From Jannaschia sp. CCS1 (GTDB taxonomy: Bacteria > Pseudomonadota > Alphaproteobacteria > Rhodobacterales > Rhodobacteraceae), in the NCBI RefSeq assembly GCF_000013565.1, contig NC_007802.1:1054001-1118000 (forward strand): a stretch of DNA of 64,000 bases, in the 5' to 3' direction. Made by a program: the position numbers and the translations under genes. Of this stretch, positions 11,801-56,998 are shown in pieces. The notes under the pieces are model-generated. The model was not told where the DNA came from and did not search any database. It saw nothing but the letters and a program-made list of their open reading frames with translations. Within the stretch, counting starts at the first letter, position 1. The number at the start of each line of letters is the position of its first letter.

Positions 11801-11851
11801 GGGGTGGCGGGCCCCGCCCGCCCACCCCTTTTTGTGGGGGCCAGCCCCCAC
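11801..11851 (+). terminator. Double hairpin terminator after the HpsN-like gene
   Basis: GGGGTGGCGGG pairs with CCCGCCCACCCC (one bulge) and is followed by TTTTT, a canonical intrinsic terminator (11801-11833). A second hairpin GTGGGGG-CCAG-CCCCCAC follows at once, then CACCCCCGGGATATTT. A related GC-rich hairpin occurs at 44336. Confidence 0.75.
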
Positions 11852-31736: not shown

Positions 31737-33090
31737 TCAGCAACAGATGCTCCCGCTCCCAGGGGCTGATGACGTGGAGGAATTCGCTGTATTCCAATTG
31801 CTTGACGGCGGAATAGACGCGGCAGAAGTCCTCTCCCAACACCTGTTGGACACCCAGATTGGCCTCCAGCAACCCCAGCGCGTCGCCCAGACCCCGTGGC
31901 ACGCCCGACTCTGCCGAATAGGCGTCGCCCTTGAACTCATCCGAGGGACCCTCGCCCTCCATCAACCCCAGATAGCCCGTGGCGAGGCTGGCGGCGATGC
32001 CCAGATAGGGGTTGCAATCCATGCCTGGCAGACGGTTTTCGACCCGCCGTGCAGAGGGTTCCGAGACCGGCACCCGCAACCCCGTGGTGCGATTGTCGCG
32101 GCCCCATTCAAGGTTGATTGGTGCCGCAAAATCAGGGACATAGCGGCGGTAGCTGTTCACATAGGGCGCAAGCAGGGCGATCACGGCGGGCATATTGCGC
32201 TGCATGCCGCCGATGAAATGGGCGAAGGCGGGGGTTTCCGCACCGTCGGCATCGGAGAAGATGTTGGCCCCCGTGGCGCTGCCCACGACCGAGTGGTGGA
32301 TATGCATCGCGCTGCCCGGCTCTCCGGCGATGGGTTTGGCCATGAACGTCGCGTACATGTCGTGGCGCAGCGCGGCCTCCCGGATCATCCGTTTGAAGTA
32401 GAACATCTCGTCGGCCAGCTTCACCGGATCGCCGTGACGCAGGTTCAATTCGATCTGCCCCGCTCCGCCTTCTTGCAGGATGCCGTCGATCTCAAGGCCC
32501 ATGCTTTCGGCGAAATCGTAAATATCATCGATGACTTGCCCATATTCATCCACGGCCGACATCGAATAGGCCTGCCGGGCCGCGGCGCGCCTGCCAGACC
32601 GGCCCATGGGCGGCTCGATCTCTCGGGCCGGGTCGGTGTTGGGGGCGACGAGGTAGAATTCCATCTCGGGCGCCACGATCGGCTGCCAGCCGCGCGCGTT
32701 GTACAGATCCACCACGCGTTTGAGGACGTTGCGCGGGGCAAACGTGACGGGATCACCCTGCTGGTCGTGGATGTCGTGGATCACCTGAAGCGTCCAGTCG
32801 GCGGTCCAGGGCGCGGGCAGGGCGGTGTCGAAATCGGGCGTCAGGATCATGTCCGGCTCGGTGAAGCCATCGCCGACATCATCGGCCCAATCGCCTGTAA
32901 TGGTTTGGAAAAAGATCGAGTTGGGCAGGTAGAACTGCGTCTGCCGCGCGAATTTCGCGCCCGGCATCGCCTTGCCCCGGGCCACGCCCGCGAGGTCCGA
33001 GACGATGCATTCGACCTCATCCAAGGTGCGGCCTTGCAGGTAATCGCGCGCGATCTGCGGCAGTTTGGTGAGGAGGTCTGACTGGCTCAT
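31729..33090 (-). CDS. PuuA-like glutamine synthetase 1
   Basis: A 453-residue GS-fold ligase. Landmarks are DLAGVARGKAMPGAKF, the glutamate/metal segment EGGAGQIELNLRHGD, HIHHSVV and the arginine-rich NRTTGLRVPVSEPSARRVENRLPG. The sequence is closer to gamma-glutamylpolyamine synthetases (PuuA/GlnA2-3 type) than to GlnA, and lacks the adenylylation Tyr loop context. Paired with a class I amidotransferase and PuuB-like oxidase, it fits gamma-glutamyl-amine catabolism. Start at 33090 overlaps the amidotransferase stop (ATGA). Confidence 0.92.
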   Translation of the reverse strand: MSQSDLLTKLPQIARDYLQGRTLDEVECIVSDLAGVARGKAMPGAKFARQTQFYLPNSIFFQTITGDWADDVGDGFTEPDMILTPDFDTALPAPWTADWTLQVIHDIHDQQGDPVTFAPRNVLKRVVDLYNARGWQPIVAPEMEFYLVAPNTDPAREIEPPMGRSGRRAAARQAYSMSAVDEYGQVIDDIYDFAESMGLEIDGILQEGGAGQIELNLRHGDPVKLADEMFYFKRMIREAALRHDMYATFMAKPIAGEPGSAMHIHHSVVGSATGANIFSDADGAETPAFAHFIGGMQRNMPAVIALLAPYVNSYRRYVPDFAAPINLEWGRDNRTTGLRVPVSEPSARRVENRLPGMDCNPYLGIAASLATGYLGLMEGEGPSDEFKGDAYSAESGVPRGLGDALGLLEANLGVQQVLGEDFCRVYSAVKQLEYSEFLHVISPWEREHLLLNV

Positions 33091-33800
33091 GCGTCGGCAT
33101 CCACCCTGAAGCGGCGCGGCTGCGTGGCGTCCGCGCCTTCCAGCACATCGGCCAGCCAATCGGCGATCAGGCGGTTGTCATTGGCGCGCGCCAGCTGCGA
33201 TTTTGCCGTGGTAAGCCGGTCCGGCTCGACCAGGTGGCCCTTGGTGTCGATTAGCGTCTCGATCACCGAATTCTCAAATTCCGGATGCGGCTGGGTGGTG
33301 AGGATGCGAGGGCCAATCGCCAGGATAGCATTGTCGCAGAAGTCGGACGAACCGTGGACCGTGGCCCCGGGGGGAAGCGTGGTCACCTGATCCTGATGCC
33401 AGGCGTTCAGTGCCAACGTCCGGCCATTCGCGGTATAGGCGGTGTGGCCCACGGACCAGCCGTCGCGGAACTTTTCCACTGTGCCGCCAAGGGCCTGCGC
33501 GATGATCTGATGCCCGAAGCAGGAGCCCACGAGCGGAATCTTTGCGTCGCGGATGGCGCGGATCAGATCCTCCAGCGGCGGGATCCAGGGGTGATCCTCA
33601 TAGGCGCCATGTCTGGACCCGGTGATGAGCCAGGCATCGGCGGCATGGGGGCCATCTGGGAAATCTCCGTCGACCACGGACCAGAGTGTTTGCGTGAAGC
33701 CACGATGCGCAAAGAGCTTGGCGAAGAGCGTGCCGTAGGGGCCGTCTTTGGCGGCGACTTCATCGGGAACATGGCCGGTTTGCAGGATGCCGAGGTGCAT
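33087..33800 (-). CDS. Class I glutamine amidotransferase-like hydrolase
   Basis: 237 residues. Nucleophile Cys in GSCFGHQIIAQALGG and a QPHPEFE segment with His and Glu complete the triad. Such stand-alone domains hydrolyse gamma-glutamyl bonds; the position between two PuuA-like genes suggests a PuuD-like role (gamma-glutamyl-GABA hydrolysis), though PuuD itself belongs to a somewhat different subgroup. ATG at 33800 starts the fold directly. Confidence 0.88.
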   Translation of the reverse strand: MHLGILQTGHVPDEVAAKDGPYGTLFAKLFAHRGFTQTLWSVVDGDFPDGPHAADAWLITGSRHGAYEDHPWIPPLEDLIRAIRDAKIPLVGSCFGHQIIAQALGGTVEKFRDGWSVGHTAYTANGRTLALNAWHQDQVTTLPPGATVHGSSDFCDNAILAIGPRILTTQPHPEFENSVIETLIDTKGHLVEPDRLTTAKSQLARANDNRLIADWLADVLEGADATQPRRFRVDADA

Positions 33801-33864
33801 GGGGACGCTCACGTGATTGCGACTGAGACGACGGTATGGGGCCACACCGCGGGCGGCAAGGGGG

Positions 33865-33952
33865 GCAAACTCTTCGAAGAGTTTGCACACGTCCTTGCAA
33901 GGACGTGGCACAGAGCCTTGCAAGGCTCTGGCAAGCCTTTTCGAAAAGGCTT
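33865..33952. repeat. Palindrome array A (four units)
   Basis: Perfect palindromes at 33865-33886 (22 bp, TTCGAA core), 33888-33907 (TTGCAA core), 33911-33930 (TTGCAA core, CAGAGCC arm) and 33933-33952 (TTCGAA core), separated by 1-3 bases. It lies between the stop of the second PuuA-like gene and the amidotransferase start. In RNA each unit would form its own short hairpin. Confidence 0.92.
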
Positions 33953-33964
33953 TCGTGCGGTATG

Positions 33965-35311
33965 TCAGACGGTGTCGAGGTAGAGTTCCTGCTGCTCCTC
34001 CGGCGAAAGGTCGGCCATGTAGCGGAGCTCTTGGCGTTTGGTGGCGAGAAAGGTCTCCCGCAGCTCGGACGCGAAGATGCGTTTGATTTCAGGGCTTTCG
34101 TCGAAGGCTGCGAGTGCGTCGCTCCAGGTCTGGGGCAGTTGCGGCAGGTCCGCGCCATAGGCGCTGCCGGTGATGGCGGGGGGCGGGGTCGTGCCCTGCT
34201 CAATGCCGTCGAGCGCTGCGCCCAGGACGGCGGCTAGGAAGAGGTACGGATTGATATCCCCACCCGCGACCCGATGTTCGATCCGGCGCGCAGCGGGGGC
34301 GCCGCCGGGGATGCGGAGCGCGGTGGTGCGGTTTTCATAGGCCCAGGCGGCGGCGGTGGGCGCGTGGGCACCGTCCACGAAGCGGTCATAGCTGGAGGCG
34401 TGGGGCGCGAAGATCAGCATGGAGCCGGGCATTGCCTTTAGGCAACCCGCGACGGCATGGTGCAGGACGTCCGAGCCATCATCGGTTCCGTTGTCAAAGA
34501 TGTTGTGGCCGTCCGCATCCAGCACCGAAAAGTGGGTGTGCAACCCGTTGCCTGCGTAGTCGGGATAAGGTTTGGCCATGAAGCTGGCGGCAAATCCGTA
34601 GGACCGGGCAAGGCCTCGGGTCAGCAGTTTGAACAGCCACGCATCATCGGCGGCCTTCATCGCGTCTGCCTGGTGATCCATGTTGATCTCAAACTGACCC
34701 GGTCCCGCCTCCGAGATCATCGTATCGGCGGGGATATCCATCGCCTCGCACCCGTCGTAAAGCGCGGTGAGGAAGGTATCGAAGGCATCCAATTGGCGCA
34801 GCGCCAGAATCTCCGCCTGTTGGCGGCGGATGCCCGAGCGCGGCGAAGGGGGCACGCGTAATTCGCGGCCCCGGTCGTCGATGATGTAGAACTCCAGCTC
34901 GGTCGCGACCACGGGCGTCAGGCCCCGCGCGGTGTAGCGGTCAATCACCCGGGCCAGCGCGTGGCGTGGGTCACCCATATACGCGCTGCCGTCGTCGTGG
35001 AACATCCAGATCGGCACGATCGCGGTGGGCGTGTCGAGCCAGGGAACCGGCACCGGCCCGCGCGCGGTGGGGTAGAGGATGCCATCGGGGTCCCCGGCCT
35101 CAAACACCAGGGGGCTGTCGTCGATATCCTCCCCCCAGATGTCGAGGTTCAGGACCGAATAGGGGAACCGCGTGCCGTCCGTCATCGCCTTGCCCGCAAA
35201 GCGCCGCGCCACCCGTTTACCCCGGGCTTGTCCGTTGAGGTCGGCGGCGACCATGCGGATGGATTTGATCTGCGGGTTGTCGTGCAGGAAGGCGGTGGGA
35301 TCTTGGGACAT
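33965..35311 (-). CDS. PuuA-like glutamine synthetase 2
   Basis: A 448-residue GS-fold ligase, paralogous to the gene at 31729. It shows DLNGQARGKRVARRF, EAGPGQFEINMDHQAD, THFSVLDADGHN and ENRTTALRIPGGAPAARRIEHRVAG. The presence of two PuuA-like proteins suggests either two amine substrates or a heteromeric enzyme. ATG at 35311 gives MSQDPTAF; the longer upstream frame lacks family similarity. First gene of the minus-strand run leading to the amidotransferase. Confidence 0.92.
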   Translation of the reverse strand: MSQDPTAFLHDNPQIKSIRMVAADLNGQARGKRVARRFAGKAMTDGTRFPYSVLNLDIWGEDIDDSPLVFEAGDPDGILYPTARGPVPVPWLDTPTAIVPIWMFHDDGSAYMGDPRHALARVIDRYTARGLTPVVATELEFYIIDDRGRELRVPPSPRSGIRRQQAEILALRQLDAFDTFLTALYDGCEAMDIPADTMISEAGPGQFEINMDHQADAMKAADDAWLFKLLTRGLARSYGFAASFMAKPYPDYAGNGLHTHFSVLDADGHNIFDNGTDDGSDVLHHAVAGCLKAMPGSMLIFAPHASSYDRFVDGAHAPTAAAWAYENRTTALRIPGGAPAARRIEHRVAGGDINPYLFLAAVLGAALDGIEQGTTPPPAITGSAYGADLPQLPQTWSDALAAFDESPEIKRIFASELRETFLATKRQELRYMADLSPEEQQELYLDTV

Positions 35312-35405: not shown

Positions 35406-36773
35406 TCAGGCGCGCAGACGGCGCAGGCCCGCCAGACCGCCGAGGCTCACCAAGAGGAGCCAGACGCCAGCGGGCAAGGGCACGGGGGCAACGGATACCT
35501 CCGAGACAGCGGCCATGCTGCGGGCTGTGCCGCGCGTGGGAAACGGGTTTGCATCCGGCACACGGGGAGCCGCCCCGCCCCAGGCAGTCAACGGCAGGCT
35601 GTGGTAACTGCTCAAGACCTCGAATGTCAGGCCGGTTTCAGCATTTTCGGGGAAGCCAGCCGCGATGGGATGGTTGGCATGGGCCCCGCTATAGGCCTCC
35701 GCCATGCTGGCATTTGAACTGAAGATCAGGGTGGACGTCGTGACAGCGGGCGCGGTGTTGGCAGCGCCATAGCTGAAAAACTCCACCGATTGGATCACGC
35801 CGTTCTGTACGGTCCAGAGGTTCGGGATGGGCGTGCCCACATATTCGCCCATGCCGAACACGCCCTGGCTGGCCGTCACCTCTACGCTGTAGGCAGCACT
35901 TGTGCCATTGGCGCTGAGGCCACGGATGATACCGGCTGAGATGTCGTTGGTGACGGCGTCGACGAAGCGAAAGGAATAATCGTAGTAATTCGCCGGTGGC
36001 GTCCCAGTGAAGACCCCAACGGGTGTTGCCTGGGCGGCGGACGCAGCACCGAGACACAGCGCCAGCGACCCGGCCATCGTTGCCATGGGAGTGCTCCGTT
36101 TGGGCCGCGCGGACAGGCGGCGCAGGCCGGTCATGCCCGCAAGGCTCGCCAGCAACAGCCAGATCCCCGCAGGCAATGGCACGGGCGCAACGGCGGCGGT
36201 TTCGGACAGGTTTGCCCGGGATATGGCCCCGGCCAGCTGCGTCCGCGTCCGGGGGACGGGCAGCCTGTCGTAGCGGCGCAGGGCGGTGAAATAGAGGCCG
36301 GAGCCGTCGAGATCTTCCGTTTCTGCGTCAGCCCAGGACGCGCCGAGGCCGATCTCTCCTTCAATGGGGGAGCCCGGCGTGTTGCTCAGGCCAAAGGTGG
36401 CGGTGGTGACGGTGGGGGCCGTGTTGAACGCACCGGCGGAGTAGAACTCGAACTGGGTGATCTCTCCGTTCAAGACGGTCCAGGAATTGGCCAGCGGGTT
36501 GCCAACATATTCCCCGATCCCGAAGCCTGCGGAATTTGCCGTGATTTCAACGGAATAGGCCGCGCTTGTGCCCGATAGCGACAGACCGCGCACCACGCCT
36601 TCCACGGCGTTGAACCCATTGGCGAGGTTGAAGAAGTTGAACCGAACATCAATGTATTGCGGTGCGTTCGGGCCTGGCACCGTTGAGACTGGCGCGGCCT
36701 GGGCCTGGGTGTGGAGCAGGGTGGCGGACAGGGCGAGAGTGGCCGCAAAAGCGGCTTGGGCGAGTGGTGTCAT
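35406..36773 (-). CDS. Two VPLPA-CTERM proteins in one reading frame
   Basis: 455 residues. Module 1: signal peptide (1-26), beta-rich body, VPLPAG (198-203), hydrophobic helix and RRLSARPKR. Module 2 restarts at Met230 with its own signal peptide (to about 251), a homologous body, VPLPAG (431-436), helix and RRLRA. The bodies are clear paralogues (both contain GTSAAYSVE and GEYVG). No stop codon separates them. Met230 (36086) has GGAG seven bases upstream, so the second module could also be translated alone. VPLPA-CTERM tails are anchored by an exosortase, not found here. Confidence 0.88.
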   Translation of the reverse strand: MTPLAQAAFAATLALSATLLHTQAQAAPVSTVPGPNAPQYIDVRFNFFNLANGFNAVEGVVRGLSLSGTSAAYSVEITANSAGFGIGEYVGNPLANSWTVLNGEITQFEFYSAGAFNTAPTVTTATFGLSNTPGSPIEGEIGLGASWADAETEDLDGSGLYFTALRRYDRLPVPRTRTQLAGAISRANLSETAAVAPVPLPAGIWLLLASLAGMTGLRRLSARPKRSTPMATMAGSLALCLGAASAAQATPVGVFTGTPPANYYDYSFRFVDAVTNDISAGIIRGLSANGTSAAYSVEVTASQGVFGMGEYVGTPIPNLWTVQNGVIQSVEFFSYGAANTAPAVTTSTLIFSSNASMAEAYSGAHANHPIAAGFPENAETGLTFEVLSSYHSLPLTAWGGAAPRVPDANPFPTRGTARSMAAVSEVSVAPVPLPAGVWLLLVSLGGLAGLRRLRA

Positions 36774-36936: not shown

Positions 36937-37776
36937 CTACCGGATCAGCGTCGGTCGAATGCGCAGCTTTGCCCGCCGGTCCGACGGCAAGTGGCGGTTC
37001 AGGCGGCGGTTGATCGCCCCAAAAAGCGCGATCACCAGAAGGGTGAGGGCAATGAAATAAGCCCCCACGATGGGATAGGGGATGAACGGGTTGAACGTGC
37101 GGTCGGCGAAGTAGGAGGCGTAGTAGAGCGCATCGCCGCGCTGCTGGAAGGCGGGAAAGGAGCTGAAGAACACCAGTGCGGTGGCGTGGAACATGAAGAT
37201 CGCCTCGTTGGTGTAGGCGGGCCATGCGAGGCGCATCGTGGTGGGGAAGGTGATGCGCCTGAACTTGGTCCAGCCGGTCAGGCCATAGGCGTCGGCGGCC
37301 TCCAGATCGCCTTTGGGGACCGAGCGGAGTGCGCCGTAGAAGATCTCGGCCGCATAGGCGGAGGTGTTGCAGAACAGGACGATGAGGGCCCCGAGCCAGG
37401 CGCGGGCGAACCAGCGGGTCTCGGCCTCGATGGCGATGCCGAAGAGCTCGAACTCATAGCCCAGGCGGGGCAGCATCACGAAAGCCTCATAGGCCATGAA
37501 GAACTGGATGAAGAGGGGCGAGCCCCGGAACAGGAAGATGAACCACTCCGCCGGTTTGCGGAGCATGAAACGGGGGGAGGCTTTGGCGACAGCGAGGGCG
37601 ACGGCGAAGAAGAAGCCGAACGACAGGGCCAGGACGCCGAAATAGACGTTCCAGATCATGCCCGAGCCGATGAGGACGACCTGTTCGCACAGCGTCACGT
37701 CGCCCTGGGGCAGAGCGCGTTCGCCGATGCCGAGGGAGCGGAGGGCGTAGTCTTGGATCGTCTGCGCGCAACTCAT
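36937..37776 (-). CDS. Polar amino acid ABC transporter permease (HisM-like)
   Basis: 279 residues with five to six hydrophobic segments and the ATPase-contact EAA motif (EAADAYGLTGWTKFRRITFPTTM region). Belongs to the HisM/ArtM/OccM class that imports basic amino acids or opines. The ATG at 37776 (MSCAQTIQDY) was chosen; upstream codons are translated palindrome DNA. It follows its partner permease across palindrome array B. Confidence 0.93.
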   Translation of the reverse strand: MSCAQTIQDYALRSLGIGERALPQGDVTLCEQVVLIGSGMIWNVYFGVLALSFGFFFAVALAVAKASPRFMLRKPAEWFIFLFRGSPLFIQFFMAYEAFVMLPRLGYEFELFGIAIEAETRWFARAWLGALIVLFCNTSAYAAEIFYGALRSVPKGDLEAADAYGLTGWTKFRRITFPTTMRLAWPAYTNEAIFMFHATALVFFSSFPAFQQRGDALYYASYFADRTFNPFIPYPIVGAYFIALTLLVIALFGAINRRLNRHLPSDRRAKLRIRPTLIR

Positions 37777-37794: not shown

Positions 37795-37880
37795 AAAACC
37801 CTTGCAAGGGTTTTCCCACGCCCTTGCAAGGGCGTGACCAGAGCCTTGCAAGGCTCTGGCAAGGCTTTTGCAAAAGCCTT
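37795..37880. repeat. Palindrome array B (four units)
   Basis: Perfect 20-bp palindromes at 37795-37814 (AAAACCC arm), 37817-37836 (CACGCCC), 37839-37858 (CAGAGCC) and 37861-37880 (AAGGCTT), all with TTGCAA cores and two-base gaps. It is placed exactly between the two permease genes of one transporter. Confidence 0.93.
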
Positions 37881-37903
37881 GGGCGCGTGGCGCATGCGGC
37901 GGG

Positions 37904-38785
37904 TCAAGCCGCAGCCTTTCGCATCGCGTCGCCGCCCGCCGTGGCCTGCCCCCGCGACAGGCGGCGCGTGAGGCGGGCCAGCACAATCTCGGACAGTCGT
38001 GTGAAGCAGAGGTAGAAGATCAGCAGGCCCAGGAAGTACCAGAAGCGCCAGTCGGGGTGCGGATAGGTAAAGCGGGCGTTGCGCGAGCCGCCAATTTCTC
38101 GGGCCCAGTAGACGATATCCTCAATGCCCAGAAGGAACAGCAAGGGTGTCGCTTTGATCAGGATCATCCAGATGTTGGAAAGGCCCGGCAGCGCGTAGAT
38201 CCACATCTGCGGCACCAGGATGCGCCAGAAGATCTGGCGCGTCGACAGGCCGTAAGCGGCGGCGGTTTCCAACTGCGGCCGGGGCACCGCGTTCATCGCA
38301 CCGTAAAGGACATTCCCGCAAAAGGCCCCGAAGACGATGGCGTAGGTCAGCGCGGCAAGGCCGAAGTTATAGGTCTCGTGCACCCATTGCGGGGCGGCGC
38401 CCTGGGGCGTGCGGGCGGCGTCACAGACCAGAAAGTTCGCGCCCTGGCGGATCGGCTCGTCCCAGTCGGGGCAGGCGATGGTGTGGCGCAGGTATTCGAT
38501 CCCCTGATCCAGGACGAGGACGAAGAACAGGAAGAACACGATGTCCGGGATGCCGCGCACCATGGACGTATAGCCCTTGCCGACAAGGCGCAGCGGAAGA
38601 ACCGGGGACCGGGATGCAGTGGCAGAGGCAAAGCCAAACGCCAGCGACAGGGGGGCGGCGACCGCCAGAAGCACCGCAACCGTCAGGAAGCTCTGATAGA
38701 ACAGCATATGGACGCCATTGGTCAGGTAGCAGCTGAACCATTGGAACGTCGCAAGCGTGGAGGGGTCTTCGCAGAAGCTGAACAT
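37904..38785 (-). CDS. Polar amino acid ABC transporter permease (HisQ-like)
   Basis: 293 residues, several transmembrane helices, EAA-type loop ETAAAYGLSTRQIFWRILVP. A loop between early helices (about residues 85-130) contains two cysteines and is unusually long. Pairs with the HisM-like permease. Chosen start MFSFCEDP has no clear Shine-Dalgarno. Its binding protein and ATPase are encoded further upstream on the same strand, separated by other genes. Confidence 0.92.
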   Translation of the reverse strand: MFSFCEDPSTLATFQWFSCYLTNGVHMLFYQSFLTVAVLLAVAAPLSLAFGFASATASRSPVLPLRLVGKGYTSMVRGIPDIVFFLFFVLVLDQGIEYLRHTIACPDWDEPIRQGANFLVCDAARTPQGAAPQWVHETYNFGLAALTYAIVFGAFCGNVLYGAMNAVPRPQLETAAAYGLSTRQIFWRILVPQMWIYALPGLSNIWMILIKATPLLFLLGIEDIVYWAREIGGSRNARFTYPHPDWRFWYFLGLLIFYLCFTRLSEIVLARLTRRLSRGQATAGGDAMRKAAA

Positions 38786-53991: not shown

Positions 53992-54281
53992 GTTTCACGG
54001 CGATCATCCGAGAGGCTTTCGTACTTTCCGATGGCAAGATCGTTTTGGACATGAGCGAAATCGAAGGGATGCCGACGGTGGGTGATCTGGTTCGCGCGGG
54101 CGGTGGTGCGGGCCGGATTGTCGAACTCGGCCGCAACTCGACCGACGGTCAGGTGGTCTCCACGCGCGCCTGTCTGACCGGCAAAGAGGTCGCGCCCTAT
54201 GGCGGTATCGTGGTGGTTTGGAGGGCGCAGCCGACCCAAGCGCTTGGGTTGCAACGGATTGAAGGAACGGCAGATGTTTAA
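53988..54281 (+). CDS. Small unknown protein coupled to mccA
   Basis: 97 residues, TTG start in a TTGA overlap with the ASCH gene; its end overlaps mccA by 8 bp. The sequence is beta-rich (AIIREAFVLSDGKIVLDMSEIEG, then GRIVELGRNSTDG, EVAPYGGIVVVWRA), with no membrane segment. Position between carboxylase subunits, with overlaps on both sides, suggests real translation. I recognise no family. Confidence 0.6.
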   Translation: MSFTAIIREAFVLSDGKIVLDMSEIEGMPTVGDLVRAGGGAGRIVELGRNSTDGQVVSTRACLTGKEVAPYGGIVVVWRAQPTQALGLQRIEGTADV

Positions 54282-56202
54282 GAAAATCCTGATTGCGAAC
54301 CGGGGCGAAATTGCCTGCCGGGTGATCGACACTGCCCGCGCCTTGGGGGTGCGGAGTGTGGCCGTGTACTCTGACGCAGACGCGGACGCGCGGCATGTGG
54401 AGATGGCGGATGAGGCGGTTCATATCGGCGGGCCCGCGCCCAAGGACAGCTACCTGCGGGGCGATGCGATCATCGCGGCGGCACTGGAAAAGAACGCCGA
54501 AGCGATCCATCCGGGCTATGGGTTCCTGTCGGAGAACCCGGAGTTTGTGGAGGCTGTGGAGGCGGCGGGGCTCACCTTCATCGGCCCCTCGGCCAGCGCG
54601 ATCCGGGCGATGGGCCTGAAGGATGCGGCGAAGGCGTTGATGGAGGAGGCGGGTGTCCCCGTGGTCCCCGGCTACCATGGCGCATCGCAGGACGGGTTGG
54701 CGGACCGCGCGGCGGAGGTGGGCTACCCGGTATTGATCAAGGCGGTGGCGGGCGGCGGCGGCAAAGGCATGCGCCGCGTGGACCAGGCACAGGATTTTGA
54801 AGAAGCGCTGGCGAGCGCGCAGGGGGAGGCCGGGACGGCCTTCGGCAACGATGCGGTGCTGATCGAGAAGTTTGTCGCCACGCCGCGCCATATCGAGGTG
54901 CAGGTCTTTGGCGATGGCACGCGGGCGGTGCATCTGTTCGAGCGGGACTGTTCCTTGCAACGCCGCCACCAGAAGGTCATCGAGGAGGCGCCCGCCCCGG
55001 GCATGACGCCCGAGATGCGCGCGGCCATGGGGCAGGCGGCCGTGCGGGCGGCGGAGGCGATCGGCTACAAAGGTGCGGGTACGGTTGAGTTCATCGTCGA
55101 TGCCACCGACGGGCTGCGCGCGGACCGGTTTTATTTCATGGAGATGAACACGCGGTTGCAGGTGGAACACCCTGTGACGGAGGCGATCACCGGCGTCGAT
55201 CTGGTGGAATGGCAGCTGCGCGTTGCCGCCGGAGAGCCCTTGCCAATGGGACAGGACGATCTGGCGATTGACGGCCATGCCTTCGAGGCGCGGCTTTACG
55301 CGGAGGACGTGCCCAAGGGATTCCTGCCCGCCACGGGCACGCTGGCGCATCTGGCATTCCCCGAGGGCGCGCGCGCGGATACCGGCGTGCGTCCCGGCGA
55401 TGAGATCAGCCCTTGGTATGACCCGATGATTGCCAAGCTGATCGTCCATGGGCCGACGCGGGAGATTGCGCTGGCAAAGCTGGATCAGGCCTTGTCGGAG
55501 ACGCAGGTGGCGGGGTCGGTGACGAACTTGGCGTTCCTGCGGGCCCTGGCGCGACACACGGGGTTTGGGCGCGGAGAGGTCGATACCGGGCTGATCGACC
55601 GCGAGGTTGAGGTACTGTCGCGTGCGCCGGTGCCCTGCACGCGGTGCCGGGCGGTGGCGGCCGTCGGCTCCATGGCGTTAACCGGAGAGGACGCGCAGGG
55701 GTTCAGCCTTTGGGCACCGCTGGAGCAATCGGTGCATTTGGCCCATTGCGACGAGGTGGAGGTCTTGAAAGTGTCCGTCACCGGGCCGGGGCGCGCTGTC
55801 GTTGTGCGCGAGGATGGCCGTCACGAGGTGGCATTTGGCGGTGGCGGATGGGCCGTCGATGGCATGGCCGTGGGGGCAGAGGTCGTGAGCCACGCGGCGG
55901 GCCTGTCGGTCTTCTGGGGCAACAATTACCATTTCACGCTGCCCGATACGTTAGATGTGGCGACGGGGCCCGGGGCCTCAGCAGGCCGGATTGAAGCCCC
56001 CATGCCGGGCCTTGTGAAGGCCGTTTTCGTGGAGGCGGGCGCGCAGGTCCAGGCCGGCGACAGGTTGGCAATCCTTGAGGCGATGAAGATGGAGCATGTT
56101 CTGGCCGCCGGGCGCGACGGGCGTGTGGCGGAGGTTCTGGTCGCCGCGGGCGCGCAGGTCGACGCGGGCGCGACGCTGATCGTCCTGGAGGACGAGGCGT
56201 GA
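54274..56202 (+). CDS. mccA: Methylcrotonyl-CoA carboxylase, biotin-carrying (alpha) subunit
   Basis: 642 residues with three parts: biotin carboxylase (1-445; KILIANRGEIACRV, ATP-grasp GGGGKGMR, EMNTRLQVEHPVTE), a linker/BT region, and a C-terminal biotinyl domain with EAMKMEH (about residues 605-611; Lys is biotinylated). Works with MccB to make 3-methylglutaconyl-CoA. The linker has a CTRC pair in PVPCTRCRAVAAVG, somewhat unusual. Followed by palindrome array C. Confidence 0.96.
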   Translation: MFKKILIANRGEIACRVIDTARALGVRSVAVYSDADADARHVEMADEAVHIGGPAPKDSYLRGDAIIAAALEKNAEAIHPGYGFLSENPEFVEAVEAAGLTFIGPSASAIRAMGLKDAAKALMEEAGVPVVPGYHGASQDGLADRAAEVGYPVLIKAVAGGGGKGMRRVDQAQDFEEALASAQGEAGTAFGNDAVLIEKFVATPRHIEVQVFGDGTRAVHLFERDCSLQRRHQKVIEEAPAPGMTPEMRAAMGQAAVRAAEAIGYKGAGTVEFIVDATDGLRADRFYFMEMNTRLQVEHPVTEAITGVDLVEWQLRVAAGEPLPMGQDDLAIDGHAFEARLYAEDVPKGFLPATGTLAHLAFPEGARADTGVRPGDEISPWYDPMIAKLIVHGPTREIALAKLDQALSETQVAGSVTNLAFLRALARHTGFGRGEVDTGLIDREVEVLSRAPVPCTRCRAVAAVGSMALTGEDAQGFSLWAPLEQSVHLAHCDEVEVLKVSVTGPGRAVVVREDGRHEVAFGGGGWAVDGMAVGAEVVSHAAGLSVFWGNNYHFTLPDTLDVATGPGASAGRIEAPMPGLVKAVFVEAGAQVQAGDRLAILEAMKMEHVLAAGRDGRVAEVLVAAGAQVDAGATLIVLEDEA

Positions 56203-56211
56203 GCGGGGGGA

Positions 56212-56316
56212 CAGACTTTTGCAAAAGTCTGCCCACGCCTTTGCAAAGGCGTGGCCGCGCGCTGGCGCGCGCCCAGAGCCTTGCAAGGCTCTGGCAAATT
56301 CCTTGCAAGGAATTTG
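56212..56316. repeat. Palindrome array C (five units)
   Basis: Perfect 20-bp palindromes at 56212-56231 (CAGACTT arm), 56234-56253 (CACGCCT), 56274-56293 (CAGAGCC) and 56296-56315 (AAATTCC), all with TTGCAA cores. A GC-only hairpin (CGCGCGC-TG-GCGCGCG, about 56256-56271) sits in the middle. Located between the mccA stop and the GST start. Confidence 0.93.
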
Positions 56317-56338
56317 CCCGGACCGGAAGCGCCGCGCC

Positions 56339-56998
56339 ATGATCAGGCTTCATCACGTACAATGGGGGCGGTCGTTCCGGGTCCTGTGGCTGTTGCAGGA
56401 AATGGGGATCACGCCAGAGATTGCGGGCTATGAAATCGGTACGCGGGGTATGCGCGCGGCCGATTTTTTGAACCGCTCGCCTGCGGGCCGGATCCCGGCG
56501 CTGGAGATCGATGGCATCAGCGTGTTTGAGAGTGCCGCGATCCTCCAATATCTATGCGAAAGCCGCCCCGAGCATGGGTTTGGCCGCCCGCCGGGGCATC
56601 CGGACCGGGTCGCCTATCTTCAAGCCATGGGCTTTGCGGAAACGCAGGCTTCGCTGATCGAGCAGCTCAACCTCAATCATCTGTTTCTACGTCCCCCGGC
56701 CAAGCCGTCACCCACGGTGATCAAGCTGAACACGCTGAGGCTGGCCGATACATTGCGGGCGCTGGACGGGATGATTGACAGCGACTACCTGCTGCCGTCG
56801 GGCTTCTCGGCCGCCGATGCGATGCTGGGCTTCAATCTGTTTGCTGCCCCCTATTACGTGCGCCTCGATCCCTGGCCCAACCTGCAAGCCTATTGGGCGC
56901 GGTTGACGGCGCGGCCCGGGTTTCAGGCGGCGGCTGCGCTGGAAGGCCCGCAGACATTCTATGCGAAGGACTTCTACGAGGTGCCGGTCGATGACTGA
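56339..56998 (+). CDS. Glutathione S-transferase-like protein
   Basis: 219 residues, thioredoxin-like N domain (RLHHVQWGRSFRVLWLLQEMG, GRIPALEIDG, SVFESAAILQYL) and all-helical C domain. The usual Ser/Tyr position is occupied by Trp/Gly-Arg-Ser, fitting a beta- or Ure2-like group. Translated right after the palindrome array; its stop overlaps the HMG-CoA lyase start by 8 bp. Role in the leucine operon unknown. Confidence 0.9.
   Translation: MIRLHHVQWGRSFRVLWLLQEMGITPEIAGYEIGTRGMRAADFLNRSPAGRIPALEIDGISVFESAAILQYLCESRPEHGFGRPPGHPDRVAYLQAMGFAETQASLIEQLNLNHLFLRPPAKPSPTVIKLNTLRLADTLRALDGMIDSDYLLPSGFSAADAMLGFNLFAAPYYVRLDPWPNLQAYWARLTARPGFQAAAALEGPQTFYAKDFYEVPVDD

Follow-up and report, generated by a model that had tools for sequence, protein, structure and literature searches.

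What does a short row of perfect palindromes do between two bacterial genes, and what keeps its symmetry intact? The question is raised by array A of Jannaschia sp. CCS1, a site within the 64,000-nucleotide stretch of contig NC_007802.1 that was analysed here as a whole (the window). As predicted originally from the letters alone, four tandem perfect palindromes of 20-22 bp with TTCGAA or TTGCAA cores stand at 33865-33952, separated by 1, 3 and 2 bp. The cores had been described as alternating; both occur, but the order is outer TTCGAA and inner TTGCAA. The proposed intercistronic position in a nitrogen-catabolic operon also stood up, as the site lies in an apparent amino-acid or amine operon with glutamine-synthetase-like (GS), amidotransferase-like and ABC permease genes, the NCBIfam matches that name these genes all being under the curated cut-offs. 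The arrays of the window and their neighbouring genes are as follows.

33865-33886, array A unit 1: 22-bp perfect palindrome, core TTCGAA
33888-33907, array A unit 2: 20-bp perfect palindrome, core TTGCAA, word CACGTCC
33911-33930, array A unit 3: 20-bp perfect palindrome, core TTGCAA, word CAGAGCC
33933-33952, array A unit 4: 20-bp perfect palindrome, core TTCGAA
33965-35311, minus strand: GS-like gene, stop codon 12 bp from array A
33087-33800, minus strand: class I glutamine-amidotransferase-like (GATase) gene, downstream of array A
37795-37881, array B: four perfect palindromes of 20, 20, 22 and 22 bp, all TTGCAA, between two ABC permease genes
37904-38785, minus strand: amino-acid-type ABC permease gene, upstream of array B
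36937-37776, minus strand: amino-acid-type ABC permease gene, downstream of array B
56212-56318, array C: four perfect palindromes of 20, 22, 22 and 26 bp, interrupted mid-array by a GC-rich imperfect hairpin at about 56255-56272
54274-56202, plus strand: biotin-carboxylase-type (PccA-like) gene, ending 9 bp before array C
56339-56998, plus strand: glutathione-S-transferase-like (GST) gene, downstream of array C

The arrays are real and far above chance: the window's perfect palindromes of at least 20 bp number 12, every one of them inside array A, B or C, while 60 dinucleotide shuffles averaged 0.2 and never exceeded 1. A known Rfam family was ruled out, with no family above its gathering score in the window and, in a search of 33800-34000, three matches at E<=1 (best 0.022), all far below gathering scores. 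Between the GS-like gene and the permeases, the open reading frame at 35406-36773 (minus strand) resembles a tandem fusion of two exported proteins and contains two same-frame stretches that match the VPLPA-CTERM sorting domain; among the matches listed, the two arrays of genome G004 lie about 1.5 kb closer together than those here. GC-rich hairpins of another type, with paired sequence of their own, stand mid-array in array C and in arrays L077, L117, L120, L210 and L212.

Array A is not a single local oddity, because the family is dispersed in its own genome, in same-genus genomes and in other genera. Genome-wide enrichment was confirmed: CCTTGCAAGG occurs 23 times in the Jannaschia sp. CCS1 genome (7 times for the reversed control), and 16 arrays of at least two units lie within 17 stretches taken from it. 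A DNA search found more arrays in this genome and in others of the genus. A covariance model of four hairpins, built from 11 arrays, matched at E<=1 in at least 8 of the 13 same-genus genomes, among the matches listed; G009 has one two-unit array, G007 gave matches at E above 4 only, and G001, G005, G010 and G011 gave none up to E=10. Arrays are absent or mere traces in 6 of the 13, so their role is dispensable. Within the family Rhodobacteraceae, sampled at one genome per genus, at least 25 of 248 genomes match at E<=0.001 under stricter filters, among the matches listed, a distribution that is wide yet patchy. On a tree of PccA and GS (1082 columns), the array-carrying G003 nests among species without arrays. 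An exact scan with a single unit as bait returned 44 stretches, chiefly from Roseicyclus, Roseibacterium and other Rhodobacterales, together with two Marivita arrays; single CAGAGCC palindromes in a Bacteroidetes MAG, Gemmobacter and Noviherbaspirillum were rejected as lone units, and five loci that duplicated stretches already fetched were left out of the counts. The array lists come from the DNA query and the model trained on 11 arrays, followed by a palindrome filter (no more than two mismatches over ten pairs, and TT..AA cores in two or more units) that misses degenerate arrays such as the one at the GS site of G003.

The units of the family, 20-22 bp long with TTGCAA or TTCGAA cores, follow one another at a pitch of mostly 22-25 bp. 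Across 417 units from 127 distinct arrays, pairing is near perfect over exactly ten pairs and then collapses, with mismatch rates of 6.5% at the central pair (k0), 0-1.2% at k1-k8, 4.6% at k9 and 49% at k10, all of which are lower bounds because the finder allowed at most two mismatches and required TT..AA cores in at least two units. The frequency of the TT..AA core is likewise partly a matter of construction, and the unfiltered list has the same core. The 5' side carries a pyrimidine at k3 in 412 and at k4 in 404 of the 417 units, and an A at k8 in 375. The freest stem positions are k5-k7, and the units hold 145 different half-words, the commonest being CAGAGCC, which was also the bait of the exact scan. 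Among 150 arrays, four units are found in 68, three in 41, two in 37 and five in 4, mostly at a pitch of 22 or 23 bp; units are longer in G063, G053 and G170, where the pitch is mostly 23-25 bp.

Words repeat within an array less than chance would have it, as expected if each hairpin must fold alone. With the bait-word loci excluded, a word recurs in 1 of 152 pairs where shuffling gives 6.7, and 25 of 5000 shuffles went as low; leaving out the commonest word too changes this to 1 of 112 against 4.5 (212 of 5000 as low), and with the bait-word loci included it is 2 of 245 against 11.2. Outer units also have a lower GC content (0.417, n=54) than inner units (0.555, n=42); because arrays share ancestry, neither this test nor the word-repeat test deals in independent events. 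An exception to the rule of differing words is L254, at the permease junction of G008, where two adjacent units with the same word form one long palindrome. We also observed that TT..AA steps recur every 11-12 bp even across unit borders, and that some words are circular permutations of others, such that neighbouring half-units can form alternative dyads (L132, L134, L143, L144 and others).

The core order of array A, outer TTCGAA and inner TTGCAA, is the rule that prevails in three other genera. In 24 arrays of at least three units from other genera, outer units have TTCGAA in 39 cases, TTGCAA in 6 and another core in 3, and inner units TTGCAA in 25, TTCGAA in 13 and another in 7 (P=1e-6; without removal of border dyads the counts were 51/7/16/27, and after it 39/6/13/25). 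The rule is sharpest in, and leans chiefly on, G063, G053 and G170 (outer, 32 CG and 2 GC; inner, 22 GC, 4 CG and 6 other), the G063 arrays being copies of one another. Inner units of Marivita and G236 fall outside it, and most Roseicyclus-type arrays are all TTGCAA, as is the G004 counterpart of array A.

With genes called by a codon-usage script, arrays sit just behind stop codons. Of 174 arrays, 147 start within 30 bp of the upstream stop (overlaps of up to 15 bp included), 9 at 31-60 bp and 6 farther away; the other 12 overlap a called gene by more than 15 bp. Among 184 arrays with a called gene on both sides, orthologues included, 89 are convergent, 85 co-directional and 10 divergent (4 more arrays lie at edges), compared with 69 convergent, 419 co-directional and 195 divergent among array-free gaps of the same stretches. 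When each flank set or locus contributes a single array, the counts are 52, 43 and 8.

Four gene junctions, read by eye in the 13 same-genus genomes with G000 among the array carriers, reveal what stands there when an array does not. At the permease-permease junction (the array B site), an array is present in G000, G002, G004, G006, G008 and G012, the two genes overlap by 4 nt in 6 of the 13 (G001, G003, G007, G009, G010 and G011), and G005 has another spacer. At PccA-GST (the array C site), G000, G003, G004 and G008 carry an array, 7 of the 13 (G001, G002, G005, G006, G007, G009 and G012) have a 4-nt overlap, and G010 and G011 have another neighbour gene. PaaA-PaaB holds an array in G000, G002, G003, G006 and G008, an overlap in G007 and a 25-bp gap in G012, with another neighbour in G001, G005, G009, G010 and G011 (G004 was outside this reading). 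In these three operons, therefore, array-free species usually have a 4-nt overlap of the two genes. Arrays at corresponding sites in KMU-115 and others would favour an old origin, and the exact overlaps elsewhere would fit insertion or loss equally. The GS-GATase junction (the array A site) has an array in G000 and G004, a degenerate one in G003, and neither an array nor another repeat in G005 and G009; in the other 8 of the 13 (G001, G002, G006, G007, G008, G010, G011 and G012) another hairpin repeat, of GGGGGCTGGCCCCC type, takes its place. This second, unrelated repeat at the GS-GATase junction of array-free sister species (TTTGGGGGCTGGCCCCCAA type, at times in tandem at a pitch of 30) was seen in L262, L263, L265-L268, L270 and L273, and also at L070:7495-7544 and L086:7465-7514, with one copy at 11836 of the window.

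Arrays that share flanks made it possible to follow the palindromes as they change. We assembled 28 sets of such arrays, a few of which joined two arrays of one genome, and retained 25 after cleaning. Spacers between shared-flank arrays differ at 421 of 807 positions. In pairwise comparison of the stem cells k3-k8, 244 double changes keep Watson-Crick pairing against 25 single changes, whereas at the central pair 7 changes are double and 36 single. When states are counted once per set and unit in the 25 sets, at least 57 are compensated and 6 broken at k3-k8, 14 and 9 at k9, and 4 and 11 at the central pair (60:7, 15:9 and 4:11 before the sets with two arrays of one genome were removed). In the gap-free nine-species set, 99.7% of cells are paired and covariation is 0.262, against 0.097 when shuffled (reached in 0 of 500) and at most 0.073 when slid. 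Changes in one arm are thus matched in the other, as had been proposed from array A by itself, although uncompensated changes do occur. The stronger form of that proposal, that structure and not sequence is maintained, holds for pairing and fails as a strict statement, since the TT..AA core, the pyrimidines at k3 and k4 and the A at k8 are kept as sequence; nor is sequence free under the structure, as words are mostly kept between species. Compensated stems beside freely changing spacers and centres are the signature of a stem with a loop and not of a duplex binding site, and from these comparisons the central pair appears to behave as an unpaired loop.

Arrays A, B and C are predicted to fold as the drawn hairpins, with z-scores of -5.0 to -6.7. 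None of 263 array ends has a T-run of at least four within 10 nt, and the T content after array ends averages 1.04 per 10 nt against 1.75 expected. Without a U-tract, a canonical intrinsic (Rho-independent) terminator is ruled out.

We consider it somewhat better than an even bet (probability roughly 0.55) that the arrays are REP/BIME-like rows of 3'-end hairpins that limit RNA decay or read-through and have spread by copying. The array would be a short dispersed element of self-complementary units, four in this case, and its transcription from either strand would give a row of independent RNA hairpins just after the stop codon. Such a row would block 3'-to-5' exonucleases and slow or partly stop RNA polymerase; the gene in front would gain a defined, stable 3' end, and the gene behind would be expressed less and uncoupled from it. 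Because palindromes read alike both ways, one array between convergent genes could serve both messages. The differential mRNA decay suggested at first would fit the placement at 3' ends. Directly observed are where the arrays lie, the covariation typical of hairpins, the gain or loss of arrays at stop/start junctions and the dispersal of entire arrays within a single genome; that they are transcribed, that they alter decay or read-through, and how they are copied is inferred. Counting against this reading are the missing U-tract; the rarity of G-U pairs, which selection on RNA would tolerate; the ten arrays between divergent genes; the symmetric cores, mostly kept where a hairpin loop needs none; and the same-genus genomes in which arrays are absent or mere traces.

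A possibility to be taken seriously, if clearly the less probable, is that the arrays are mobile elements like REPINs or MITEs. Some enzyme would move the whole array by way of its hairpins, the outer TTCGAA units would be the ends, and the location at stop codons would reflect tolerance or target choice, all of which is compatible with a REP/BIME-like role at 3' ends. G063 carries two arrays, L194 and L195, that match letter for letter across 93 bp, and two more, L197 and L198, with 93-97% similarity to that pair; the 600-bp flanks of the four have no similarity at E<=0.001. Whole arrays have therefore been copied, at least in G063. The outer/inner core rule of other genera points the same way, as do the patchy distribution across genera and, among the matches listed, the presence of arrays in G003 and their absence from its nearest sampled relatives. 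However, the REP transposase Y1/RAYT (Y1_Tnp, PF01797) was above its cut-off in 0 of 16 genomes (one sub-threshold match in G003; distant variants may escape), which rules out a RAYT-driven REP. The suggestion of a self-copying REP-like element thus held in spirit, through the identical G063 arrays, and not in the enzyme. No target duplication was recognised by eye at the arrays. Many arrays occupy corresponding places with their words kept across species, so movement must be rare in the Roseicyclus group. Array B matched nothing in phage and plasmid collections, and a repeat borne by phages or plasmids was ruled out for these two collections.

A more elaborate version is doubtful. It combines a RAYT-independent, self-copying multi-palindrome family, native to these Roseobacter-related bacteria and with an outer-TTCGAA/inner-TTGCAA code, with renewal of symmetry at the DNA level on hairpin templates; insertion at stop/start junctions would split translationally coupled genes and give them separate message ends.

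Upkeep at the DNA level as the principal explanation, in which single-stranded DNA hairpins would serve as templates, template switching would reverse or copy arm changes and any RNA function would be secondary, we judge unlikely, although the composition of the stems speaks for it. In co-directional arrays, 2 of 762 stem pairs (127 different units) are G-U, against 42 of 1344 in other 3' hairpins, and all non-Watson-Crick pairs number 9 of 762 against 86 of 1344 in other hairpins behind stop codons; these control hairpins come from the same stretches, were found by other rules and have other loops. Among double stem changes, transversions (34) nearly equal transitions (41). In 49 units compared between G002 and G006, the closest pair of genomes, the stems show two double changes and not one single change, and the central pair, which is expected to go untemplated, breaks most. 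Template switching has moreover been published as keeping RNA stems perfect, in passages of PMC8794818. Against this, strong selection yields the same double-change pattern, and DNA-level upkeep leaves the 3'-end placement, conserved cores, fixed pitch and conserved words unexplained. The other 3' hairpins of the same stretches, with their other loops and finding rules, are less perfect. Finally, G-U and A-C mismatches, whose proportion on the transcribed strand would single out selection on RNA, stand at 2:3 in arrays and 42:15 in control hairpins, a difference short of significance with P=0.14 after cleaning (the uncleaned 3:7 against 42:15, P=0.011, contained repeated units and border dyads); what survives the cleaning is the rarity of G-U. 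Rare G-U pairs and perfect stems could each come from strong selection on both strands or from template switching in DNA.

Least probable of all is a role as duplex DNA, in which a dimeric nucleoid or topology protein would bind sites set on one face every 22 bp, or two helical turns (gyrase and IHF are said to bind BIMEs). The regular pitch, the sequence-conserved TT..AA core and the same rules on both strands would suit such sites, but matched-pair variation at k5-k7, the freest positions, is more than a dimer site calls for and rules out a simple one; the central pair is free and divergent gaps are avoided.

The reading of the arrays as 3'-end hairpin rows can be set beside known systems. 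REP/BIME elements lie 3' of genes and between cistrons, and the arrays, too, are short, extragenic, clustered, dispersed, lineage-specific palindromes found mostly 3' of genes; they differ in being near-perfect palindromes of many words, not of one consensus, in rows of two to five units. The rhizobial RIME/Sm are likewise intergenic palindromic elements of Alphaproteobacteria, and are larger, with a common sequence. Passages of PMC2817692 give REPs as usually exceeding 100 copies, compared with about 16 arrays in the own genome here, and as associated with RAYT in the genomes that carry them. Each REP class, in passages of PMC3733652, has one conserved palindrome, often with a GTAG- or CGTC-type tag, whereas the arrays have no single conserved palindrome and, since orthologues differ in half of their spacer letters, no constant tag next to the units.

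In passages of PMC8355165, Gupta and Pal (2021) describe clusters of at least two hairpins, mostly within 80 nt of the stop codon, as terminators for which poly-U is not required. The arrays resemble these in clustering and in closeness to stop codons, and are unlike them in their regular pitch, shared core, family-wide sequence rules, whole-array copies and placement also inside operons. The hairpins with template-switch-maintained stems of Monttinen and Loytynoja (2022), as passages of PMC8794818 present them, share with the arrays stems kept perfect, paired changes and few intermediates; those hairpins lie in RNA genes, and the arrays are a dispersed 3'-end element. The likeliest models for how the array works are an intercistronic REP/BIME and a hairpin-cluster terminator; it is neither a RAYT-linked REP nor a canonical terminator. 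We found no account of the element in the literature searched, which held few subscription papers, and the passages of PMC12306157 (RepRanger), PMC3733652 and PMC2267715 name no Rhodobacter- or Roseobacter-type genus.

The arrays offer an unusually clean natural experiment in compensatory evolution: their short stems number in the hundreds, many of them occupy corresponding sites in several species, and the free spacers and, as a second, the unpaired centre serve as built-in controls. They make it testable whether selection assembles paired changes one at a time or template switching makes both at once, and what a row of hairpins does to an operon when placed between genes that overlap by four bases in sister species. 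They are a good natural test case for the spread of hairpins and the upkeep of their symmetry, and they also point to an undescribed, RAYT-free spread of REP-like elements.
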